A stretch of 64,000 bases of DNA, taken from positions 7,642,075 through 7,706,074 of the forward strand of contig OZ004587.1 of assembly GCA_963924555.1 (NCBI GenBank), given 5' to 3'. Below the pieces are notes generated by a model that had not been told where the DNA came from, did no database searches, and saw only the letters and a list, made by a program, of their open reading frames with translations. Below, piece after piece: positions 13,481-36,700 of the stretch. The translations under genes and the position numbers were made by a program. Every line of letters starts with the position of its first letter. Within the stretch, counting starts at the first letter, position 1. Source of the stretch: Crambe crambe (lineage: Eukaryota; Porifera; Demospongiae; Poecilosclerida; Crambeidae).

Positions 13481-15042
13481 GGATGGATGGTGGGGCTGAG
13501 TTTAACGACACTGAGAGTTGTGAAGACTTCCCAGAAGTGGCTACAGTGGAACCTCCGAAAAGAGGACAAATTGGGACCAGGAGTTTTGTCCTTTATAGAG
13601 AGGTTGTCCTCCTTAAGAGATAATGATCAGAATGCAATTTTTAATACACAAAATCATATTGCAGGGTTATTGTGATTAACAGACTTTGTAACTTAAGAAC
13701 TACAATCATGCACTAGCTACTTAATTGATGTCCTTGGGGCTGGGGAAAAGTAATCAAGTAGGGTGACTTGCTTGGTTGCCCACATATGGGCACAGGCTAC
13801 TCTATGTAGTGGCCTCTTCAATACAGCCACGGCTCTCAAGAAAAAGTTTTACATCATCCAATTGCACTATTGCTTGACTAAAGTTCTTTAGTTTTGGAAC
13901 AGGCTCCTCATCCATACTTTCATCTTCATCCATCTCTGCTGAGGCATCTTGCTCAGAAAAGTGAACAAGGGGTTTGCTGAAGTTACTGCTGCCAAGATCA
14001 ACAGAGGGGCTTTGTAAATATAGACTCTACGGACCCAAGGCGTATACTGTGACAAACATAAGCAACTTTTAACAAACGCAGGTTTTACTTTGCATGCATT
14101 ATTAATACATTGATTGGGTGGGTGTGGTCTCTTGTCCTTCTTTTGTAGGAATGGTCAATGTGTCTTCTATACTGCATCTTCTGATATAATCCCTGCAATG
14201 ATTTCTATAGACTGAATGTGGACAAATATTATTTGCCAAGCAGTAGAGCAAATGAGAGTATTGAAGTACTGAATAATTTTGTTGCCAATATTGCTCTTTT
14301 AATAGTGCCTCATTGTTAGTGAGTGCACCTGAATAAAGATAGCTAGCTATAGTTAACTGCTTCCTATTGGAAATAAACAACAACGACAACAACACAAAAA
14401 CAACAAGAATAAAAACGTGCTAGTTCACTATTCAAAGTGAATGAAACCTCTAGCTGTAGCTATACCACAACACAGTTTATTAAAACTAACTAGAGCATCT
14501 CTCTATTAAATTTCTAGGGATCCTATCACAAGAGTTATTTGCTACCACTACTTTCCTCCCTGTGGCAATGTGACACACTTTAAACCTCCTAACACACTGT
14601 GTCGAGACATTTGTGATTAGCTATATCATTGAAAGAGTTTGTCCACTAACATTTATGATAGCTGATATAGTAGCCTTGAATCTTCAGTTCATAAACTGCA
14701 GTCGACCAGGGCTTGCACTTGATTCTCTTTCCCACTGTTGCTCTGATGCTGGAATAAGAATGGGTACATATGTAACTATAGTGGCTAGCTATATTATCTT
14801 TTATATAATAATATCATACTAACTAGCTAACCCAGTCACAAGCAGTCCCAACCCAACACGTTTATCCACAGTTATCACTGTTCTATCAGTGGCAGCTGCT
14901 TCTGTTTTTGTGCTAGTGGTTGCAATAGGAACAGTGCTATTCTGTGTCATGAAAAAACCTTGCATGCGTGAGAAAATTATTATTCAGTTCAGTAATGCCA
15001 ACAGTGAAACACTACAGTCTCCCGAGTTACCTGGAGTACAGT
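13480..15042 (+). pseudogene. Decayed second receptor copy (ectodomain and membrane segment, no kinase)
   Basis: Four blocks follow the exon order of the upstream RTK. About 13489-13548 reads AEFNDTESCEDFPEVATV, matching its exon 2. About 14150-14315 reads NGQCVFYT, then after a frameshift DKYYLPSSRANESIEVLNNF. About 14518-14757 reads RVICYHYFPPCGNVTHF, then LCRDIC, a frameshift, and [11 protein letters not shown]. About 14848-15042 encodes a transmembrane segment with a short basic tail and a stop at 15040-15042. The first block is cut by a MITE-type sequence beginning CAGTGGAACCTCC. Removing one TAGC at 14615-14625 would restore frame in the third block. No kinase exons follow; the 7.6-kb transposon begins 74 bp further on. 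Confidence 0.7.
13545..13640. mobile_element. MITE fragment (CAGTGGAACCTCC family)
   Basis: It matches the first two thirds of the better-preserved copy at 58613-58772 (CAGTGGAACCTCCGAA, then GTCCTTTATAGAGAGGTTGTCC). It lies inside the decayed receptor exon. Confidence 0.55.
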
Positions 15043-15361
15043 AGCTATATAAGCAGTGCACTGTGTGTATATAGCATGAATTATGTATTGTAGCTACACG
15101 GCTTTTTCTGGCATAGTATGGGGTGCCATGTGTCTCAAAACTCTGTATAATCAGGATTAACCATTTCAAATACGGCTATTTATAAATCACTGGTTGTATT
15201 TAGCTTTTATTTTCCATAAAATACACTTCTTATTTGTAAATGTCTGTAGTATATACAAATACTAATTGATATTTATAAGTACATGTGGGCATGTACAAAT
15301 ATTGGTGGACATTTATAAATACCTGGTGGATATATTTTATAAATATCTATAAATACCTAGG

Positions 15362-16440
15362 GTAGATACAAGTATCAGTGGATATTTATAAATGTCTGTG
15401 GATATTTATAAATACCTAGGGTATATACAAGTGTCAGTGGATATTTATAAATGTCTGTGGATATTTATAAATACCTAGGGTAGATACAAGTGTCAGTGGA
15501 TATTTATAAATGTCTGTGGATATTTATAAATACCTAGGGTAGATACAAGTGTCAGTGGATATTTATAAATGTCTGTGGATATTTATAAATACCTAGGGTA
15601 GATACAAGTGTCAGTGGATATTTATAAATGTCTGTGGATATTTATAAATACCTAGGGTAGATACAAGTGTCAGTGGATATTTATAAATGTCTGTGGATAT
15701 TTATAAATACCTAGGGTAGATACAAGTGTCAGTGGATATTTATAAATGTCTGTGGATATTTATAAATACCTAGGGTAGATACAAGTGTCAGTGGATATTT
15801 ATAAATGTCTGTGGATATTTATAAATACCTAGGGTAGATACAAGTGTCAGTGGATATTTATAAATGTCTGTGGATATTTATAAATACCTAGGGTAGATAC
15901 AAGTGTCAGTGGATATTTATAAATGTCTGTGGATATTTATAAATACCTAGGGTAGATACAAGTGTCAGTGGATATTTATAAATGTCTGTGGATATTTATA
16001 AATACCTAGGGTAGATACAAGTGTCAGTGGATATTTATAAATGTCTGTGGATATTTATAAATACCTAGGGTAGATACAAGTGTCAGTGGATATTTATAAA
16101 TGTCTGTGGATATTTATAAATACCTAGGGTAGATACAAGTGTCAGTGGATATTTATAAATGTCTGTGGATATTTATAAATACCTAGGGTAGATACAAGTG
16201 TCAGTGGATATTTATAAATGTCTGTGGATATTTATAAATACCTAGGGTAGATACAAGTGTCAGTGGATATTTATAAATGTCTGTGGATATTTATAAATAC
16301 CTAGGGTAGATACAAGTGTCAGTGGATATTTATAAATGTCTGTGGATATTTATAAATACCTAGGGTAGATACAAGTGTCCGTGGATATTTATAAATATCT
16401 ATGGATATTTATAAATACCTAGGGTAGATAAAGTATCAGT
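15362..16440 (+). repeat. 59-bp subterminal tandem array (about 18 copies)
   Basis: The repeat phase shifts by one base per 60-base line, giving a 59-bp period. Each unit contains GATACAAGTGTCAGTGGATA, two copies of the self-complementary core ATTTATAAAT and CCTAGGGTA. Central copies are essentially identical; copies at both edges diverge. Homologous, more degenerate units occupy about 21955-22520 in the right TIR. Arrays of this kind in TIRs commonly serve as transposase/integrase binding sites; that role is inferred. Confidence 0.9.
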
Positions 16441-16619
16441 GGATATTTATAGCTAAATGTCTATGGATATTTATAAATACCTAGGATATTTATCAATGCT
16501 ATAAGTACTTAGGGTATTTATTGATATTTATAAATACCCAAGGTAGATACAAGTATTGGTAGGGTAGATACAAATCTGTGGTTACTTTTCAAGGTAGAGG
16601 TATTTGTAAATGTATGTGC

Positions 16620-16682
16620 ATCATGTGACTGGCACATGAGACTGTCATAACAATCATGTGACTTGCACATGGAGTTTTAAAA
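16620..16682 (+). promoter_or_regulatory. Putative HECT promoter with paired E-box/M-box sites in left TIR
   Basis: Immediately upstream of the start codon the TIR carries TCATGTGAC at 16621-16629 and 16654-16662, each followed by a CACATG. These are E-boxes, and the TCATGTGA form matches the M-box recognised by MiT/TFE factors in animals. The same sites occur in the right TIR before the integrase start. Promoter function is inferred from position and conservation. Confidence 0.45.
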
Positions 16683-19600
16683 ATGAACAACTCTAGTATA
16701 GAGATGCTCTCAAATGCTATTGCTGTAGCTATACAGCAAAGTGCCACTAGTAATGGAACAGCCACTTTATCTAGTTCAGTTAGTAGTCCACAAACTGCTC
16801 CACAGGCAAGTGGAACTCCTACATCAGAGCAGAGATCAGAGTAAGTCTTTGAACAGCTAGCTATGCCAGCCTATTTTTTCCCCTTCCTCCGAAAAAAAGA
16901 AGAAGAGGCCTATGCCATCAATCAGTACCCAATTGTATTCTCAATTTCCCGCCCCCTCCACATTTTACAATTTCCAACCTCCGCATTTCACTATTTCATG
17001 CCCCTACATTTTTTGAGCCTGGGTACAAAGCTATCAGCTTCTTGCTCTCTCCTATAGGCGTCGATCTGCTAATATTATCCTTCCATCCTATATGAAAAGA
17101 AAACGACCATCAGGTGTTGTGTCAGCAAAAAAGCCCAAAAATGTACAATCATGGGATCGAGACATCATATGTCTGCCACAAGAATGTTATAATTCTCATC
17201 ATGTTAACTATCCTAGAGGCAAATACAGGGCGAGGTTAGGAAGCAATGGATTAGTGGGGAAAATTCACTTGACGAGCGATATGACTGTTCAAGATGTGGA
17301 AAGAGAGGTTAGATCTGTATTTCATGGACCAATGCGTGACAGAGAAGATTTTCCATTTGTATTTTTACAACCAACTGGAGCAGGAAGTCGTTCTCTTACT
17401 ATTCCATCTGTGTCCACATCATTTAGTTGGACTGCTCAGCAAGTTGCTCGTCTGTCTGGTACTAAGGGTTCAATTTATATATTGGCCAAGGACGATTTAT
17501 CTTATCCTGATTCTGAAGTTAGTGATTAATTACAGTAGCCCCCTCCATAACTTATCATGCATGTTAGTAAAGGTCAATCTGTCAATGAGTCAGTACATAT
17601 AAGATTACCATTTCATCCCTCATATAAACAGCAGTGTTACCAGCCCTTATAATAGCCATGAAGAATGGCCTCGATTATTTTATGCTCTTAGCTTGCATAA
17701 TTTATAGTCATTTAGTCTTTTCAGTGTGAAAGCTCTGACACAGATAGTGAAGAGGAGAGACCACAATCGTCTACTAGGTAAATAATACACATCATTAAAA
17801 ATTAACTGTTAATATAATCTTACTCTTATCCAGTACTCCAAAGGATCAGTTGAAGCCTTCCCTCCGGGGTCAAAGTTCTGATGACCTATATAAGTATGTT
17901 TTTTTTGTTCTTTTTTTAAAAATAGGCCTGGGAACAAGGCTACTGTTATTTCTGCTTGAAAGGTTGGCTAACCACCAGAGGTTTCAATTTTAAGTGTTTA
18001 GTGGGTCCATTCCCTGTTCCCTGGTGCTGAGATAATAGTTCTGGACAAAAGCTTGTACCCTTAAAAATTAGCAATCACATTGTAACAATAGTTCTAGCTA
18101 TATTTATATTTTTGCAGCAATTATGTCGACTTAATTGATTTAACCACTAATTCTCCTTCCTACCCAAACAATGGTACTTCTGGAACTGACAGTGAAGATG
18201 ATCTACTTTTGCCAGCTATATCACTGAGGTTGCTATTTTACTTTTCCTTGATTACTTGCATGCACCCCAGTTTTTTGTACCCAAACAAACAACCAAAAAT
18301 AAAAACACACACACACAACAAAAAACAAAAGTATGTCAAGCTGTGAGGGCATGCTCTTAGTGTAGGTAGAGAAATGCTACAAAATGGATCTACTCAGGCA
18401 TGCAGTATACGTAATTGTACAGTCTGTACTGCTTCACAGCTCGATGCACCTTTTAGCTTGTAGGATATGTGACTAACAAAATGAGTAGCAGGAAAGGTTA
18501 TCACTTATTAGGTTATGCATATCAATTTTTTTTAGAGTGTGGTAGATACACATGGCATCTGTAAATTGTTGTTTGTTTATTTATTATTTTTCATGTTTTG
18601 TTGTTTTTATTTGTTTGTTGTTGTTTGGGGATATCATGCCACAGATATTATGGTATTACAATGTTCCCTTAGACCTAAACCTGTTGCTACAGCGGATATT
18701 ATTGCAACAAAACACATTTTGATCCAGCATCAGCAACGTATGATTAAAGCTAAAGATGAAGAAGATTATCAGCGTTTATATGTCCGAAGATCTAGGGTCT
18801 ACAGTGATGCTATGCGAAGCTTTGGCAAACCATCCTTTGATGTTGAAAAAATGCTTAAAGTATCCTTTATTGGAGAGGAGGCTGTGGATGATGGTGGTCC
18901 AAGGCGTGAATTTTTCAACCTCTTGATTAAGAATATATTCACATCATCAGGACTGTTTTGTGGTTGGCCAGATCATATAGTGCCATTACACAATATACCA
19001 GCTATTACTTCTAACAACTTCTTCATTATTGGTAAAATGATAGCTACATGTCTTGTTCAAGGTGGTGAGCCACCTGTGTGCTTCGCCCATGCAATTGCTG
19101 ATTACTTGGTATTCGATCGTATCAAGAGTACTACCTGTGTGGAAGACATTCCTGACCCAGATATAAAATCCAAAATGGAGAAGGCAAGTATTTACTTTTC
19201 AACTGTAGTATTTTTATGTCATAGAGAAACAATACAACTTACCTTGCTAACCACCAAGTGCATATGCATAACAGTCAGGGATCCCTCACAATGTGTGTAT
19301 GTCTAGAAATTAATAAGTTATTAAATTTGGAAACATGCATGTTTTAATAGGTTATGGATGCTTCTACCACTGCTGAATTACAGTCATTGCTCCAGGAAAA
19401 TGATTATGATTTTCGTTTCAATTGTGGTTATAGCAAACCAACTCCCAGAATAGATATTTCAGAAAAAGAGGAGTTGATTCGTGTTGTATGGCTGCACTAT
19501 ATATTCTTTCTCCCACATGCTGAACTAGAGCAGTTACGCAAGGGACTAAGAGAAACACTGCAGGTGGATGTACTGTGTTGTTTACATCCAGAAAATGTAT

Positions 19601-20061
19601 GGAGTTTACTTGCTGCATCATCAGCTTTTGAAGTCACTGCTAAATTTTTTTTAGAGTCATTCATAATCAACTATTCTGATCAAGGATCAAACAAACGCAC
19701 TTTAGAAGAGGCACTCGTTCTTCACTGGACAGACTTTATTCAAGAGTGTGAAGGTGAGCACTTAACTCATTATGATGGTTAGCTATAACTATTTAACATG
19801 TACTTTTTAGAAAATGGGAGCACTACTGGTGTGACACTTTCAGATATTTGGAAATTCTTTTCAGGTGCAAATAAAATTCCAGGTACTGGATTTGAGAATG
19901 CTCCATCTATCAAGTTTACAGATGAAAATATGTTACCAAAGGTTTCAACATGCGCTCACTGTATTACTTTTTCTCGACAATTTGGCCTCATATCTTATGA
20001 TAATTTTAAGTACAAGATGAAAGAATGCATTCTCGGATCATTTGGATTTGGTCAAGTATGA
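16683..20061 (+). CDS. HECT-type E3 ubiquitin ligase carried by the transposon
   Basis: Exons 16683-16840, 17058-17517, 17725-17777, 17834-17893, 18118-18228, 18673-19183, 19351-19753 and 19811-20061 join in frame to about 668 residues. Exon 1 (MNNSSIEMLSNAIAVAIQQ) lies in the TIR. Exon 2 has a conserved-looking segment (SWDRDIICLP, PRGKYRARLGSNGLVGKIHL) of a kind I recall from other animal HECT proteins. Residues about 290-668 form a HECT domain: KVSFIGEEAVDDGGPRREFF in the N-lobe and, in the C-lobe, STCAHC with the candidate catalytic Cys at about residue 633 (19951-19953), ending SFGFGQV. HECT enzymes carry ubiquitin as a thioester on that Cys. The intron after 19183 has a GC donor (AAG|GCAAGT). 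The gene converges with the integrase gene 400 bp away. Confidence 0.88.
19184..19350 (+). other. GC-AG intron in the HECT gene
   Basis: Frame continuity between EKV and MDAST requires a donor at AAG|GCAAGT, the classic GC donor context, and an acceptor at TTTTAATAG. No GT donor nearby keeps the frame. Confidence 0.7.
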
Positions 20062-20461
20062 TTATTATTAAGCAACCACTGAACTCATTAGTAGCAGTAC
20101 CAAGACAAAATTCATCTTACATATTCATTAATAATAAACATCTATAATGCGGTTTAGCAATATAGAATGTTGACTTGAAAAAGCCAAACCGGAAAGTCCA
20201 TTTGCAGGAGCTACTATTAATTTAGTTAGACAACTCAACCAATGGAAAATCAGGCTCTTTGTATTAGAGCCCTATAGGCCACTTCACCAAAGCATTTCAA
20301 GCTGATTTTACACAAGATAGCTAGCTATTCAGATTCATCAAGTGAGTACTACAATGCCTTGGTGTCCATTTCTACATGCATTCTAAATAATATTATTGTG
20401 ATCTAACCTAATTATACTTTAATTAAAATGTGATATTATCATAGAAATTATTACAAGTTAA
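20062..20461. other. Spacer between convergent transposon genes
   Basis: 400 bp holding the 3' ends of both genes, AT-rich. No further coding sequence was seen. Convergent overlap of the 3' UTRs is possible. Confidence 0.5.
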
Positions 20462-21834
20462 TTACATTGTACATTCACCACAGTTACCACTTACATGTTG
20501 ACCTATCAATTCAATAGCTGATTTATAAAGAGTCGTACCATTTTCTGCACTTGACTGTAAAGGATTGATGGTACTCTCTAATTGAGTGACTAAACTTTGG
20601 CATGGCATGAATTTAATCCTATCAACTGTAACAGTAGATACCCGGGATACATCAATATCAATATTGTCTTGTTCCTGAACATCATAGTCATAATTAGCAA
20701 GTACATAACGAGTTCCTTCAAAGAAAAGTTGATTTGGTGTCTTGTTCCCTTCTGATGATAATGCATGCTGGTTCCAGCTGTCACGAAACTCTGATAAGCA
20801 TTTATTTATACGTGGTGCATAAATGTAGTGTAGGCCATATAAATCGATTTCATTCATATGATCTAAATACCTTTCTCTCTCTAGATCTTGGAATATCTGA
20901 GAATACACAAATCCCACACACCTATTTATGTCTCTCCACATTCTTTCCACCCTTTCATTGTGAGTAGAGCAGCCAGTAATAACACATCCATAGTCAAGAA
21001 AATGAGAGGCAATCATGTATCGCCACACATCCACATTCTCACTTCCGTGATCTGTACGTACACTCTCAGGCAATCCAAAATTTGAAACACCTTCTTTAAA
21101 AAAAGTAAGAACTGTGTCAGCTCTGTTATTATTAGCACAGCCAGCATAAACTATGGTGCGAGAAAAACCATCCACGGCTGCATGGGTAACAAAACGCCAT
21201 TTAATGAGTTTATGGTTACTATCAATGTGCCATATAAAATTAGGATGAGGCACCGAGTACACTCTACGCTTGATGGTACTTCGACGTCTTCTGATAACAT
21301 TCTCATGATCCACTCTGTGAATTGCTGCACGAAGCTCTTTTCGTCTCACTTTGATTCCAAGTCTGAGAAGGTGACCCTGGAGCAATCTCTCTCCTTCGTT
21401 AGGATGTTCCTTTTTTATTGAAAGCAAAACTTCATCAATTTCTGTTGGAAGCAGTGGTGAGTAGTCATCAGGAGACACTCCTGCATCAGCAAGCCTTCGA
21501 TAAAGTGTGGATCGGGATATATCCAATAGAGTAGCTATATTTTTCCAGTTATAATTCATAGCTCTGAGGACGAGTATGTCTTCAATTTCAACGTCCTTTT
21601 TTGGCCTACCACCAGCAGGGTGTCTATCATTATGTGTGTAGTAGCTACATTAATATATATGTAAAAATTCATGACTTACACTGATGTAGAAGTCTGAGAA
21701 TTTCCACTTGCCTGTGGAGCAGTTTGTGGACTACTAACTGAACCAGATAAAGTGGCTGTTCCATTACTAGTGGCACTTTGCTGTATAGCTACAGCAATAG
21801 CATTTGAGAGCATCTCTATACTAGAGTTGTTCAT
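20462..21834 (-). CDS. DDE integrase/transposase of the transposon
   Basis: Two exons on the minus strand: complement 21680-21834 (51 codons plus 2 nt, inside the right TIR) and complement 20462-21623, joined as TSTS-V-HPAGGRPKKD to about 438 residues. The N-terminus copies that of the HECT protein. Residues about 60-105 form a helix-turn-helix (NWKNIATLLDISRSTLYRRL). The rve-type core has WHIDSNHKL (first Asp), VRTDHGSEN (second Asp) and HNERVERMWRDIN (Glu); I count 34 residues between the second Asp and the Glu. The metal-binding triad is therefore present. By family it should cut and join element ends at the TIRs and duplicate 4-6 bp of target, matching the 5-bp duplication seen. The TAA-free 3' region faces the HECT stop. 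Confidence 0.9.
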
Positions 21835-22738
21835 TTTTTAAAACTCCATGTGCAAGTCACATGATTGTTATGACAGTCTCATGTGCCAGTCACATGATGC
21901 ACATACATTTACAAATACCTCTGTGTTTATACCCACTACACATTGATAAATATCCGAGGTATTTAATAGACATTTATAAATATCCACTGATACTTTATGT
22001 ACCCTAGGTATTTATAAATATCCATAGAGTATCCGCTAATACTTGTATCTATCCCAGGTATTTATAAATATCCAGACATTTATAAATATCCACTGATACT
22101 TTATCTACCCTAGGTATTTATTAATATCCATAGAGTATCTGCTAATATCCATAGACATTTATAAATATCCACTGACACTTGTATCTACCCTAAGTATTTA
22201 TGAATATCCACAGACATTTATAAATATCCACTGACACTTGTATCTACCCTAGGTATTTATGAATATCCACAGACATTTATAAATATCCACTGACACTTGT
22301 ATCTACCCTAGGTATTTATAAATATCCACAGACATTTATAAATATCCACTGACACTTGTATCTACCCTAGGTATTTATAAATATCCACAGACATTTATAA
22401 ATATCCACTGATACTTGTATCTACCCTAGGTATTTATAAATATCCATAGACATTTATAAATGTCCGCTGATACTTGTATCTACCCTAGGTATTTATAAAT
22501 ATCCATAGATATTTATAAAATATATCCACCAGGTATTTATAAATGTCCACCAATATTTGTACATGCCCACATGTACTTATAAATATCAATTAGTATTTGT
22601 ATATACTACAGACATTTACAAATAAGAAGTGTATTTTATGGAAAATAAAAGCTAAATACAACCAGTGATTTATAAATAGCCGTATTTGAAATGGTTAATC
22701 CTGATTATACAGAGTTTTGAGACACATGGCACCCCATA
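21702..22738 (-). repeat. Right terminal inverted repeat
   Basis: About 1.04 kb and inverted relative to 15117-16815. It contains the integrase first exon, the same E-box pair, a shorter and more degenerate 59-60-bp repeat array and the same terminal tip. Confidence 0.9.
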
Positions 22739-22743
22739 CATAG

Positions 22744-27720: not shown

Positions 27721-30700
27721 ATGGCCGAGTCAAAGAAATGCAGTGATGCCAGGGAACATCCGAACTGTTTGCAACTGTCTACAGAGGATCACTTTAAAGT
27801 CTGTAAGAGTTTGAAGGTCTTAAACAATGAACAGTTGAGACAACTGGGCACTGCTCTCGGATTGCTTTATTCCAACCTTAAGAAGATGAAGGACCTGCCT
27901 GACGATATGGTGGATGCCTGGCTCAACGGGATGGACAGTGTGTTGAAAATGAGTGGCCCTTCATCTTGGACATCTTTGATCAAGGCCCTAGAGAATATTG
28001 GTCAGGAAGGGGTTGCTTCCACCATCAGGAAAGGTAAAACATAGGTACATGCTCACTCCTCCCATTAACCTTTTTATATTGCCAGAGCATGCACAGTGAA
28101 GTAGTTAGTTAATCATGATCTTTCCAAATCAAAAGTCTATATCTAGTTATTACAGGTACTTGATACTATTAATTACATATAATGAAATATCACAGAATAT
28201 TCTCAGTCTGTGATTACCACACCAACACCACCTCCTCTCTCATGTGACCCTGTTCCTCCGACACAAGTTCAAAATGAACTATCCAAAAGAACCACTTCTA
28301 CTATAGCCACACCGACTCCATTTCTTGAACCCAGTGACTCCTCCTCCCTCTTGATGAGGTCACCTCCTGAGAACTCTGAAAGAATGTTGAAGAAAGACAA
28401 CTTAAGTGAGTTTACATTCTTTTAAGGGTGCAGGCACATAGTAACCAAGGCATGCGCTAGTACAAGCACTAATTAACCACAAACACTACCGTGCTAAAAT
28501 AACAGTAAACACAATAGCAGCTGCTGCTTTGGCACATAAAATCCATGCTAGCATGAATAATGAACAAGTCATTGCAACTCAGGAACTATGCATGGGAATG
28601 AGCCAATATTTTGCATATGGCAACTACTTGATAAGGTCTAAAAAGTTACATTTTGCTTTAGTTTATAGCTAGTACAGAATGTGCAGGACACAAGATCCTA
28701 TATGGATAAATTAAAAAGTAGAATGTGAATTGATAAAAACTAAATGTAATTTTTATGGCAATAAGTATAAGAAGCTGTATATCAAAAATCAGCCATTGAT
28801 TCCAAGTGGTCATTGAGATGTAACGCAGTTTACCTTGAGAATGGAATCAGTCATAACATCAGTCATTTTGATTGGTCCTCCTTTATTTTTTGTGTATGTG
28901 GTACTATTCTGATACTTAATAATGTGGTGCAAGTTAGGAATTTCTATCATGAATAGTTTTTAAGTTAATTTTCCCTAGCAACCATGCGTGGGCGGAGTGT
29001 GCCTGCACCCTTAATCAAATAGCTACACAGGAACTGACACTTTATTTATATCATGTTACATTATGAGCATTAATTTTTAACTATTAACATTATAATATCA
29101 CATACGTACAGCAACATCCCTCTATTCTCCAAGTGAAAGTCTTGAAGAACAAATCCAAAGCTTGGAAGATCAGTTCAGTGAAATTGCTTTGCAAACATTT
29201 GATAAAATAAAAGAGAAAAAACTCGATGTTAGCCAATTTAGAGCACGTCTAGTTACTGTACCGATCAAGTATCGAGAGCATCACAAGGAGTTTTTCCAGT
29301 GGCTAGAAAGTGACATAAAGAAAGACACAAGCATAGATCACATTTGGATGAAGTTGAGCCACTACTGGGATTTCCTCAACTACACACTCCTGGAGAATCT
29401 GGTTAAAAGGTTTGGGGATCACACCCTCAAAACCGACATGATAAATTACGTGAAGCGACTAAAAGAGTTTCGATCCACCACTCGTGTGTGCATCTTTGCT
29501 AAGTATTGTACCAAGGTCAATAAAAAGTTGTCAGAACATGATTTACAAGACTTCGTTCTCAAATTTAAAAAAAAATGTTGGAAGGAATGCACATTGGAGG
29601 ATTTGGAAAATGTGAAGGAAAATATTTCTCATAAATTCTTCCTCCCCTCATTTGTGATGAATTTAAAAGACATTCAACCAGGATCCATTGTAGTCACCTG
29701 GACGCTCCCAACACTTATTGCATCAGCTATCATGGAAATTCTTGAAACCACATATGTGAGTGAATTTTGTAATGAGAATGGAATTGAAAGCATCACGATC
29801 GATGGCAAAGAGATTATTTACTCACCAAGTAAAGAGGCCTTCTTAAAGGACATCAATTTCACCATGAAGGGAGAGAAATTTGCTTCAAAACTGGCTCCAA
29901 TAATGGAGAAATACAGATGTGGAGATGTATGTGTACGTGCTTCAGAATCAGTAATTGTTCGTTCTACATCCTCATGGACTCCACTTGATTACTATAGTCT
30001 TGGATATGCTCTAGCCAACTCTCCATTGAAATGGGAATTGAACTTCTTCATGGGAGATGAAGGGATGAAGGAGATGTGTAGGGGAATGTTGAAGTGTACG
30101 GAACCATCAGAAACAGGACAGGATATACATATATACTTTGGAGGTAGTACTATTTCTGTGAAGGGTCTCAAGTGGTTTGTGAAAATCCCTTGTCTTCAAC
30201 GAATAGTGTCACTGAATTTTTATGGTAACAAACTGGATAAGAAAGCGTTGGATCTTCTTTCACAAGTCATCCATGCATTGTCTAGATTAGAGGTATTAGA
30301 TCTTTCTGGCAATCCCATTGGTGAGGGGGGAGCAGTGAAGTTCATGAGAGCTCTCTCTCTCTACAAGACTCCATTGAAGAAGTTGTATTTGCAGAGGACA
30401 TCTCTTGGAAAAGAAAACATACAAGCACTCTGTGAATTCCTGGCTGACAATCATATAGAAGTACTAGCCATCGATGGCCCCACCATCAAGCATCGTATGT
30501 GTCAGTTGAAGGAGTTGGATCTTTCCAGCTGCAGTATTAATAGTGATGGAGCTGTTCAACTAGCAGCTGCACTAAGTAAGAACGAGTCAGTGGTGAAAGT
30601 TTATATGTTGGGGAATGAAGACATTAGAGATGTCGGAGCAGGTGCTTTTGGGGACATGCTGAGGAAGAACACAGTACTACAAGAACTTGATTTGAGTTGT

Positions 30701-33786: not shown

Positions 33787-36700
33787 ATGACAGAGTCCAA
33801 GGAGTATTCCACAATTATCAAGTGCAGGAGGAAATTGGAAATTGCTCTGGAGAACGACAGAGATATAGCGCTGTTTCTCCTCCAGCAAGGATTCATCACA
33901 CAAGAACGTTATGATGAAGTTATCAACCCGAAGTCACTTCTGACAGACACTGATAAAGCTAGCATGTTAGTGACTGCTATAAGGAATCGAGTTGAACTCA
34001 ACCCTCACAATTACCACAAAGTGGTCGATCATTTGTGTCAGAACACTAAAAGATATGGAGACATCAGTGAAATTCTCAACCAACAGTATCATCAGACCAC
34101 AGCTGTAGGCAACCCTCTTCAACCAGGTATGAGGAAGGGAAGACTGGATAGTTATGTGCTAGTTACCTTGACAGAAACCCCCCCAGATGATTAAGTTAAT
34201 TGTCTATGGATGTCTATGGTATCCTTTTCTGTCTGTGGATTTTTTAAGAGAGCAACCTGGCAACACTGGGTTTCTCCAGCCAATATAAGATTAATTCTTC
34301 CAGGAACCACTGGCTGCATAGTTGATCATTAATTATGTGCTCGGAACTTCCCACAGAATGTAACGACTCCGTGTCTCTAACAAATGCTGCTCCAGATGAA
34401 CCACCCAAGAGAACCACCTCTACTATAGCTACACCCACTCCATCTCTTGAACCCAATGACTCTTCCTCCCTCTTGATGCGGTCATCTCCTCAGAGCTCTG
34501 AAAGAAAGTCATGTAAGGACAACTCAAGTAAGCTAATAGCTATATAAAGCCATGGGTTTTAAAGGTTTCGCCAAATTATAGCTTTTTGTGTCCTGTTACA
34601 TAGGCGGAGGAACATAAATTTACATGGGGGGGGGCAGTTTGAGTGACTGACTTAACCTCATGTGTGAGTGATTTTCATATTTGCACATTAATTGTCAATA
34701 GAGTTCACTTTGCACATGCAGTCATGTATAATTGTCTCCTACAATGACAAATATTTGAATGAATGGCCCCCCTATACTGTGGCATCTTGTTTGTGGTTTT
34801 ATGTTGGGCAGTGTGTGCCATTAATTTCAGTTGTGCAAAGTCTAAGCAAAATCTAGTTGGTGAGGCAGAATGTGTGTGACAGTTCTTTGCAAAACTTAAG
34901 GTTTGGAGTGGTGATAACTAATGTATTTAGTACAGCAGGTACATACTCATCAAATTCCTACCTTTTAATGCTCACATGAATAAACTAATACTATAAAATT
35001 GCTGACACTCTAATCAGTATACAATATCACAGACTCATCCAGTTCTTCACGTGAAATTCTTGAAAAGAAAATCCAAGGTTTAGAAGATCAGTTCAATGAA
35101 ATTGCTATAAAAACATTTGATAAAATTGATGAGATGGATCTAAATGTCAGGAAATTCAGAGCACGCTTAATTGCTCTACCAATCAAATACCGAGAGCAAC
35201 ATAAAGAGTTCTTCCAGCAGCTGAAGAATGATTTAGAGAAAGACAAAACCATAGAAGATGTATGGATAAGGCTGAGTGAATACTGGGATTTCCTCAATTA
35301 CACACTCCTGGAGAATCTTGTTCACAAGTTTGGGGATCAATCCCTCAATGCCAGTATGAATGATTACATAAAGAAACTTAAAGAGTTCAGATCATCTACT
35401 CATGTGTGTGACTTTGCAGAGTACTGTACCAAAATCAATGAACGGTTAAAGAAGCACCATTTACAAGATATCATTTTAAAGTTCAATCAAAGCTGGGAGG
35501 AATGCACATTGGAGGATCTAGAAAATCTGAAGGAAAATATTTCTCATAAATTCTTTCTCCCTTCATTTGTGATGAATTTAAAAGACATTCAACCAGGATC
35601 CATCGTAGTCACCTGGACACTCCCGACACTTATCGCATCGGCTATCATGGAAATTCTTGAAACCACATACGTGAGTGAATTTTGTAATGAGAATGGAATT
35701 GAAAGCATCACAATCGATGGTAAAGAGATTATTTACTCACCAAGTAAAGACTATGAAGCATATGAGGCCTTCTTGAAGGACATCAATTTCACCATGAAGG
35801 GAAAAAACTTTGATGCTTCAAAACTGGCTCCAATAATGGAGAAATACAGATGTGGAGATGTATGTGTACATGCTACAGGATCAGTATTTGTTGGTTGTAC
35901 ATCCTCATGGACTCCACTTGATTACTATAGTGTTGGATATGCTCTAGCCAACTCTCCATTGAAGTGGAGCTTTCACTTCTCATATTTTTCCATGGGAGAT
36001 GAAGTGATGAAGGAGATGTGTAGGGGAATGTTGAAGTGTGTGAAACCATCAGAATCAGGAAAGGATATACATGCGCATTTTGGAGGTAATATTTCTGTGG
36101 AGGGTCTCAAGCAGTTTGTGAAAGTTCCTCATCACCTTCTCCAACGAATCGTGACACTGGACTTCTCATCCAACAAACTGGATAAGAAAGCATTAGATCT
36201 CCTTTCTCAAGTCATCCCTGCACTGTCTAGGTTAGAGGTTCCAACAATCCCATTGGTGAGGGGGGAGCAGTGGAGCTCATGAGAGCTCTCTCTCTCTACA
36301 AGACTCCATTGAAGCGATTGAATTTGCAAAGGACATCTCTTGGAGAAGAAGACATACAAGCACTCTGTGAAGTCCTGGCTGACAATCATATAGAACTACT
36401 AGCCATCGATGGCCCCACCATCTCCATTATGACACTCCATGTTCAAACAATCAGAGTCAAAACTCTTCGTGTTTATCGACCTATGTCAGTGGATAGCTGC
36501 ACATCCTTGGCATCACTACTCAAGCATCGTACGTGTCAGTTGAAGGAGTTGGATATTTCTGACTGCAGTATTAATAGTGATGGAGCTGTTCAACTAGCAG
36601 CTGCACTAAGTGAGAACAAGTCAGTGGTGGAAGTCAATATAGGGGGGAATAAAGACATTGGAGATGTCGGAACAGGTGCTTTTGGGGACATGCTGAGGAA

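Follow-up and report, generated by a model that had tools for sequence, protein, structure and literature searches.

The stretch of DNA analysed here, hereafter the window, comprises 64,000 nucleotides of the sponge Crambe crambe (assembly GCA_963924555.1, contig OZ004587.1, forward-strand positions 7,642,075 to 7,706,074); positions given without a contig name are counted from its first letter. It harbors a DNA transposon of 7622 bp (15117–22738) in which the gene of a DDE integrase is accompanied by the gene of a HECT ubiquitin ligase. The element is delimited by TATGGGGTGCC at its left and GGCACCCCATA at its right end and is flanked by the target-site duplication (TSD) CATAG (15112–15116 and 22739–22743). 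The terminal inverted repeats (TIRs) are of unequal size, ~1.7 kb on the left (15117–16820) and ~1.05 kb on the right (21697–22738), and the left one includes the HECT promoter region together with most of HECT exon 1. The matching ends, the CATAG on both sides and the TIRs of 1.0–1.7 kb had been reported in an initial annotation of the window and are confirmed here. The comparison with an empty site proposed there is also available: a paralogous locus on another contig (L052; C11 near 5053125) carries one CATAG and no element. The element of the window is therefore a true insertion. The left flank (14792–15116) is a duplicated stretch with 91% identity to the empty site (L052 116–426, C11:5052815–5053125); by eye, a putative reading frame for a membrane-like protein ends within it. 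Both TIRs are occupied by repeats detected with a tandem-repeat finder, namely a 59-bp array of 19.3 copies on the left (15343–16485) and arrays of ~20- and 59-bp units on the right (21968–22549), where the 59-bp array has 6.4 copies at its main hit. It is possible that these arrays are binding sites of the integrase.

The HECT gene is located on the plus strand and is formed by eight exons coding for an unbroken predicted protein of 668 amino acids (aa); all introns are of the GT-AG type except one GC-AG. Exon 1 (16683–16840) encodes an N-terminal peptide that shares 43 of its first 44 residues with exon 1 of the integrase. Exon 2 (17058–17517) encodes an N-terminal domain, tentatively predicted to be a ubiquitin-like beta-grasp, as its structural model (pLDDT 90.3) is most like ubiquitin-like folds, weakly. 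Exons 3 (17725–17777) and 4 (17834–17893) form an acidic linker, which is followed by exon 5 (18118–18228) with the motif VDLIDLTTNSPS from residue 247, resembling a SUMO-interacting motif (SIM). The N-lobe of the HECT domain is encoded by exon 6 (18673–19183), which has the GC donor; exon 7 (19351–19753) follows, and exon 8 (19811–20061) encodes the C-lobe with the putative catalytic Cys633 and the terminus GFGQV-stop. The Pfam HECT profile (PF00632) matches the protein with E = 1.3e-10 (41.9 bits with the cut-off of 23.9), and Cys633 aligns to the catalytic Cys of Rsp5, in agreement with the full HECT domain and the Cys near its end claimed previously. The catalytic residue (TC) is kept in 24 out of 24 C-lobe rows, which represent 22 loci including six near-identical copies of the L010 family. 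The protein is probably an active ligase.

The integrase gene lies on the minus strand and codes for a predicted protein of 438 aa in two exons. Exon 1 (21834–21680), called from the sequence alone, is largely common to HECT exon 1; exon 2 (21623–20462) comprises a GRPKK stretch, a helix-turn-helix-like start, the DDE core and C-terminal Cys/His residues. The Pfam families rva_4 (1.5e-68) and rve (4.5e-8) are matched. The triad motifs WHID, VRTDHG and NERVE, already recognized in the initial annotation, are present; in an alignment of 49 rows D113 and D170 do not vary and E205 hardly does (residues are numbered in the open reading frame (ORF) of 365 aa), and the triad is also seen in a second alignment. 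In a search with the predicted structure (pLDDT 88.6) retroviral integrases are the first matches (best E 5.3e-7), and the top 50 also include IstA and TnsB-type transpososomes. No zinc finger was found by Pfam upstream of the DDE core, where only helix-turn-helix matches below the cut-offs occur, and a Pfam scan of the exon-2 ORF gave no match to a zinc finger, OTU or Ulp1. In the tail of the protein (20462–20600) C320 and H355 are invariant and C360 and C363 nearly so in the same 49 rows; these residues possibly form a metal-binding site. In the second alignment the Cys equivalent to C320 is absent from the L009 and L010 rows, whose tails had been trimmed close to where the match ends.

Both genes were described in the initial annotation as intact-looking. 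This holds with one correction, as neither is a single ORF: both are predicted to start with a short exon inside the TIRs, which escapes a reading that takes no account of introns.

The pairing of the two genes is not a peculiarity of the window. In the searched genome (143 Mb) at least 119 scored integrase matches are distributed among at least 87 loci, and HECT-gene segments lie beside 27 of the 30 best integrase matches, 25 of them detected by profile and two (L021 and L018) in the extra stretches L040 and L043. No HECT segment was seen in the recovered stretches of the three others (L008, L025 and L026). The profile match at L016 is a piece of only 21 residues; a separate search gives a HECT match of 195 residues beside this locus. 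A Pfam recheck of seven HECT-gene pieces recovered HECT in four (L010, L005, L030 and L007) and gave no match for the N-terminal domain of L031. For all loci, a HECT match is found within 5 kb of 65 of 87 integrases, the fraction being 51/65 for loci with at least 500 bp matched and 39/45 for those with at least 800 bp. With the HECT protein of the window as the only query, an integrase is located at a distance of up to 5 kb from 26 of the 39 HECT loci, compared with a mean of 0.68 and a maximum of 4 in 1000 random placements; this null applies to that query and not to the pooled searches behind the three fractions above. The loci matched by PF00632 fall into two classes: none of the 27 best ones (above 42 bits) is near an integrase, while 29 of the 42 weaker ones are (5 kb). 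Altogether, 51 of 80 transposon-type HECT loci are within 5 kb of an integrase.

The pairing recurs with integrases that are only ~34–52% identical to that of the window, in two gene orders (the window has the genes tail to tail, the L015 and L009 types have them head to head), and the identities of HECT and integrase co-vary over 15 loci (Mantel r = 0.563, p = 0.0001). The HECT gene is almost certainly a stable component of this IS3EU-like lineage. The proposal of the initial annotation that the ligase belongs to the mobile element is thereby borne out against a one-off capture, and neither integrase copies consistently devoid of HECT nor a predominantly stand-alone host gene, which were named there as refuting it, are seen.

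Further elements with the same ends, as looked for since the initial annotation, were delimited. The ends TATGGGG..CCCCATA are common to the element of the window, to E3 (L003+L031, 6781 bp, exact 6-bp TSD GAAATC), E4 (L033+L004, 6495 bp, TSD TATAAC/TATATC with 5 of 6 bases alike) and E5 (L034+L005, 5989 bp, exact 6-bp TSD TTGTCA), and to L050, a rearranged copy of the window family (5286 bp, exact 6-bp TSD GAAACA). An element of the L010 family has the ends TATGGC..GCCATA and the exact 6-bp TSD ATCTGT. Among the six elements with both ends mapped, the TSD is thus an exact 6-bp one in four. At least three more members of the window family are present on contig C3, each of them incomplete or rearranged within the stretches covered, and none on another contig; the L010 family is represented by six near-identical paired copies on five contigs. 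Two near-identical L010-family elements (L014 and L017, C1:5443255-5447059) stand side by side in opposite orientation with their integrases 1.6 kb apart. E5 (C1:7029907-7035895) is chimaeric: its integrase and N-terminal domain belong to one lineage and its HECT domain to another. Ligase domains therefore appear to be exchangeable between elements. Arrays of ~18–20-bp units are seen in the ends of the window element, E3 and E4, and their sequence varies between families; no arrays were reported by the tandem-repeat finder at the E5 termini.

The predicted starts of both genes lie within the terminal repeats, and the sharing of the first residues by the integrase and the HECT protein of the window results from this location of exon 1 of both genes. 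The first-exon regions of the window are homologous (310 of 375 columns, score far above shuffles), and so are those of E3 (196 of 297 columns, score 92 versus a maximum of 24 in 50 shuffles). Both genes of E4 and of E5 seem by eye to open with a short exon starting with MA and having a helix-like pattern. Four E-box-like sites (CATGTG/CACATG) are situated just 5' of the HECT start codon (16620–16672, plus strand) and four more 5' of the integrase start codon (21845–21897, minus strand), and E-box-like sites precede both genes in all four elements examined. The form CACGTG is found at most ~120 bp from the start codon of either gene in E3, E4 and E5, and also in an L015-type HECT gene. Its distances are nearly equal between the paired genes of E4 (-48/-47) and of E5 (-66/-63), and it is present at 6 of 8 gene starts versus 47 of 5626 background windows of 121 bp each, taken from the flanks in the window itself with unmatched base composition.

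The linker between the N-terminal domain and the HECT domain reads YVDLIDLTTNSPS in the window, YINLIDLTKDSESESDD in E3, YINLISDDSDGE in E4 and YINLVSDEEDT in the L007 element (L035). This motif resembles the SIM consensus. A strict SIM-like pattern, scanned over the window and the recovered loci in six-frame translation (511,412 residues), gave five hits, all of them in HECT linkers, while five shuffles gave 0–2. The hits come from four families, one of which is represented twice (L051 being a second copy of the window family).

There are signs of the same module in other genomes. The profile of the HECT N-terminal domain matched 392 proteins in the public set. Six contig sizes (3787, 14454, 123995, 640814, 708218 and 4663597 bp), the first two of them short, coincide to the base between the integrase hits and the N-terminal-domain hits that were listed (120 integrase rows compared with 117 of 120 domain rows); in shifted controls such coincidences were confined to contigs below 2.6 kb. 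For five of the six sizes the best integrase is 53–57% identical to that of the window, which equals or exceeds the 52–53% of the nearest other families found in the sponge genome. From this identity we infer that the HECT-integrase pair exists in other genomes, where the longer contigs give no measure of the closeness of the two genes. A fish protein (P0121) and a mussel protein (P0122) are HECT homologues; the former, a partial protein below the Pfam HECT cut-off, is also alike by eye in the N-terminal domain.

In the portions of the IS3EU literature considered here this group is characterized by the ends TAYGG..CCRTA, a TSD of usually 6 bp and no HHCC finger (PMC12730594, PMC10045372). The lineage of the window has ends of this type, a usual TSD of 6 bp, a DDE core and no HHCC finger, and so the element fits the IS3EU type, with the HECT gene as its apparent new part. 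What distinguishes the lineage from IS3EU and GingerRoot is the ligase partner gene and the very long TIRs holding promoters and first exons. The words HECT and ubiquitin are absent from the main texts of PMC12730594 and PMC10045372, and no paper on a HECT-integrase pair was found in literature searches. The initial annotation knew of no named superfamily defined by this gene pair; none so defined was found, but the integrase and the ends do fit the named IS3EU, which had been mentioned there only for comparison. As far as the consulted part of PMC12730594 goes, fungal IS3EU elements carry TET/JBP and alpha-kinase genes, and in the TET-bearing ones the transposase is paired with an oppositely oriented alpha-kinase gene. 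They are alike in having a second enzyme gene opposite to the transposase; the enzymes are a kinase and a dioxygenase there and a ubiquitin ligase here. Transposons with enzymes removing ubiquitin or SUMO are also described, in the part of PMC2836005 available to us, among Ginger1 and Mutator-like elements: the transposases of Ginger1 include an OTU or Ulp1 domain, and an involvement of the ubiquitin pathway in transposition is suggested by the authors. An enzyme of this pathway is linked to an integrase-like transposase in both cases, but in Ginger1 it is a removing enzyme within the transposase, whereas the window element has a conjugating enzyme on its own gene. The element does not show the Ginger1 features of a 4-bp CCGG/CCGT TSD, TGTNR ends, an H2C2 finger and an OTU or Ulp1 domain: its ends and TSDs differ, and none of these domains is matched in the Pfam scan of the integrase exon-2 ORF.

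With the other HECT ligases (Rsp5, AREL1, E6AP, P0122 and P0121) the protein has in common the HECT domain recognized by profile and the catalytic Cys. It differs by a profile match weaker than that of the host-type HECT loci, by its own N-terminal domain and by its location inside a transposon. RNF4 is a SUMO-targeted ubiquitin ligase, and to our knowledge the known ligases of this kind are RING enzymes. The protein described here would resemble them in combining a candidate SIM and a ligase domain in one polypeptide, its SUMO binding being predicted.

The element, its insertion, the recurrent pairing, the conserved active site and the predicted start of both genes in the TIRs are thus demonstrated at the level of sequence, and the two genes constitute a real, mobile and conserved module, for which the mechanism of the ligase can be proposed. 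The best account, to which we assign a probability of roughly 0.55, is an IS3EU-type transposon with a HECT ligase as a stable second gene, in which SUMO-guided ubiquitination serves transposition. The integrase would bind the repeat arrays and move the element, and both genes would be switched on jointly from the promoters at its two ends. The HECT protein would recognize SUMO-marked proteins via the linker motif and ubiquitinate them. Its most likely targets would be host factors that act in SUMO-dependent silencing or repair and assemble on the element or, alternatively, the integrase-DNA complex itself, and transposition would be favoured as the outcome. The initial annotation had considered a host restriction factor, a histone or the integrase as candidate targets. 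The short exon common to both proteins may mediate their mutual binding or the binding of a common partner. The parts of this account differ in strength: SUMO guidance of the ligase, taken separately, is a tentative suggestion from the motif, and the choice of one named target would be doubtful. It is conceivable, although unlikely in its entirety, that the lineage possesses its own SUMO-targeted HECT ligase, tied to the transposase by the common N-terminal peptide from both TIRs and by matched E-box promoters, as a module that cuts DNA and clears SUMO-marked proteins at the site; the pair would then possibly be an old animal-wide lineage, with the orphan HECT genes of fish and mussel as its remnants.

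Several observations weigh against this account. The 8-exon HECT model and all exon-1 calls are derived from sequence alone. The TSD of the window element reads 5 bp and not 6; it may be a real 5-bp duplication or a 6-bp one with one base lost, and the empty site allows either. With regard to the pairing, the HECT profiles were iterated on ORFs of the same genome, two L036 pieces had no match in the Pfam recheck, 22 of the 87 integrase loci lack a HECT match in the surrounding 5 kb (many of these are fragments, but not all), and 29 of the 80 transposon-type HECT loci are farther than 5 kb from any integrase, although 27 of the 29 span less than 1 kb. E5 carries a HECT domain of the L029/L030 group, which means that the pairing is not strictly vertical. 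With regard to the linker, the strict SIM-like pattern was not found in the recovered ones of L010, L015, L021 and E5; a looser acidic-SIM pattern missed the motif of the window and hit antisense controls about equally in several linkers; and the fish and mussel homologues have a motif like the ubiquitin-interacting motif (UIM) before the HECT domain instead. Nucleotide homology between the two first exons is not above shuffles in E4 and E5, and the copy in the window has CATGTG/CACATG without CACGTG, the background of which was compositionally unmatched as noted above. The SIM pattern and the E-box were both counted only after they had been noticed, and the scans describe their specificity and are no independent tests.

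Close rivals of the SUMO-guided account are pure counter-silencing and action on the integrase. The former, a tenable though somewhat less than even possibility, implies that the ligase counters host restriction, be it SUMO- or chromatin-based silencing or antiviral factors, without contacting the integrase. It is favoured by the SIM-like motif in four families and by the fungal IS3EU elements with TET/JBP and alpha-kinase genes, for which the authors, in the part of PMC12730594 considered here, propose escape from silencing in the case of TET/JBP; it leaves the common first exon without explanation. According to the latter, which we regard as rather unlikely, the ligase acts on the transposition complex and ubiquitinates the integrase, dismantling the strand-transfer complex or limiting copy number, with no counter-silencing. 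The N-terminal peptide common to both proteins in two elements could join them, and the matched promoter sites suggest joint expression; MuA transpososomes, for comparison, require active removal. The common exon, however, may be a mere by-product of the long TIRs, and the SIM-like motif points to SUMO conjugates. It is improbable that the HECT gene is a passenger, that is, a host ligase that was acquired on one or a few occasions and brings the element no benefit: transposons do carry passengers and E5 demonstrates that the HECT part is exchangeable, but HECT accompanies integrases down to ~34% identity and co-diverges with them, the catalytic Cys is kept in all 24 rows, and no integrase is found within 5 kb of any of the 27 host-type HECT loci (above 42 bits). 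An artefact is hardly credible, be it the chance nesting of two unrelated elements or a join made in the assembly. Nested insertions are common and E5 is chimaeric, but the same pairing occurs in E3, E4, E5 and the L010-family element, each of which has both ends and a 6-bp duplication (with a single mismatch in E4). It also occurs in six copies of the L010 family that are nearly identical and are spread over five contigs, and an empty site exists for the whole unit.

A conjugating enzyme conserved together with a transposase would give a direct handle on the use of the ubiquitin-SUMO system by transposons, and it represents a different solution from the removing enzymes of Ginger1. The persistence of the two genes together through long divergence suggests that protein tagging, of host proteins or of its own, aids the spread of the element. 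Terminal repeats serving as promoter and first exon of two genes would provide a compact single control over both, and this type of element might account for the expansion of unusual HECT genes seen in animals.

Relatives of the integrase (41–43%) were also encountered in L037-L039, which consist of animal-type integrase DNA from contigs that had been assigned to the genome bin of a Cycloclasticus symbiont living in a poecilosclerid sponge; probably, they are host contamination of the bacterial genome record. L038 also has ORFs resembling, by eye, a retroelement polyprotein. In the window itself a row of plus-strand ORFs extends over positions 29162–53719. No Pfam family was matched by the ORF at 35134; four of the five scanned ORFs (29162, 36270, 43618 and 51863) match leucine-rich repeats.

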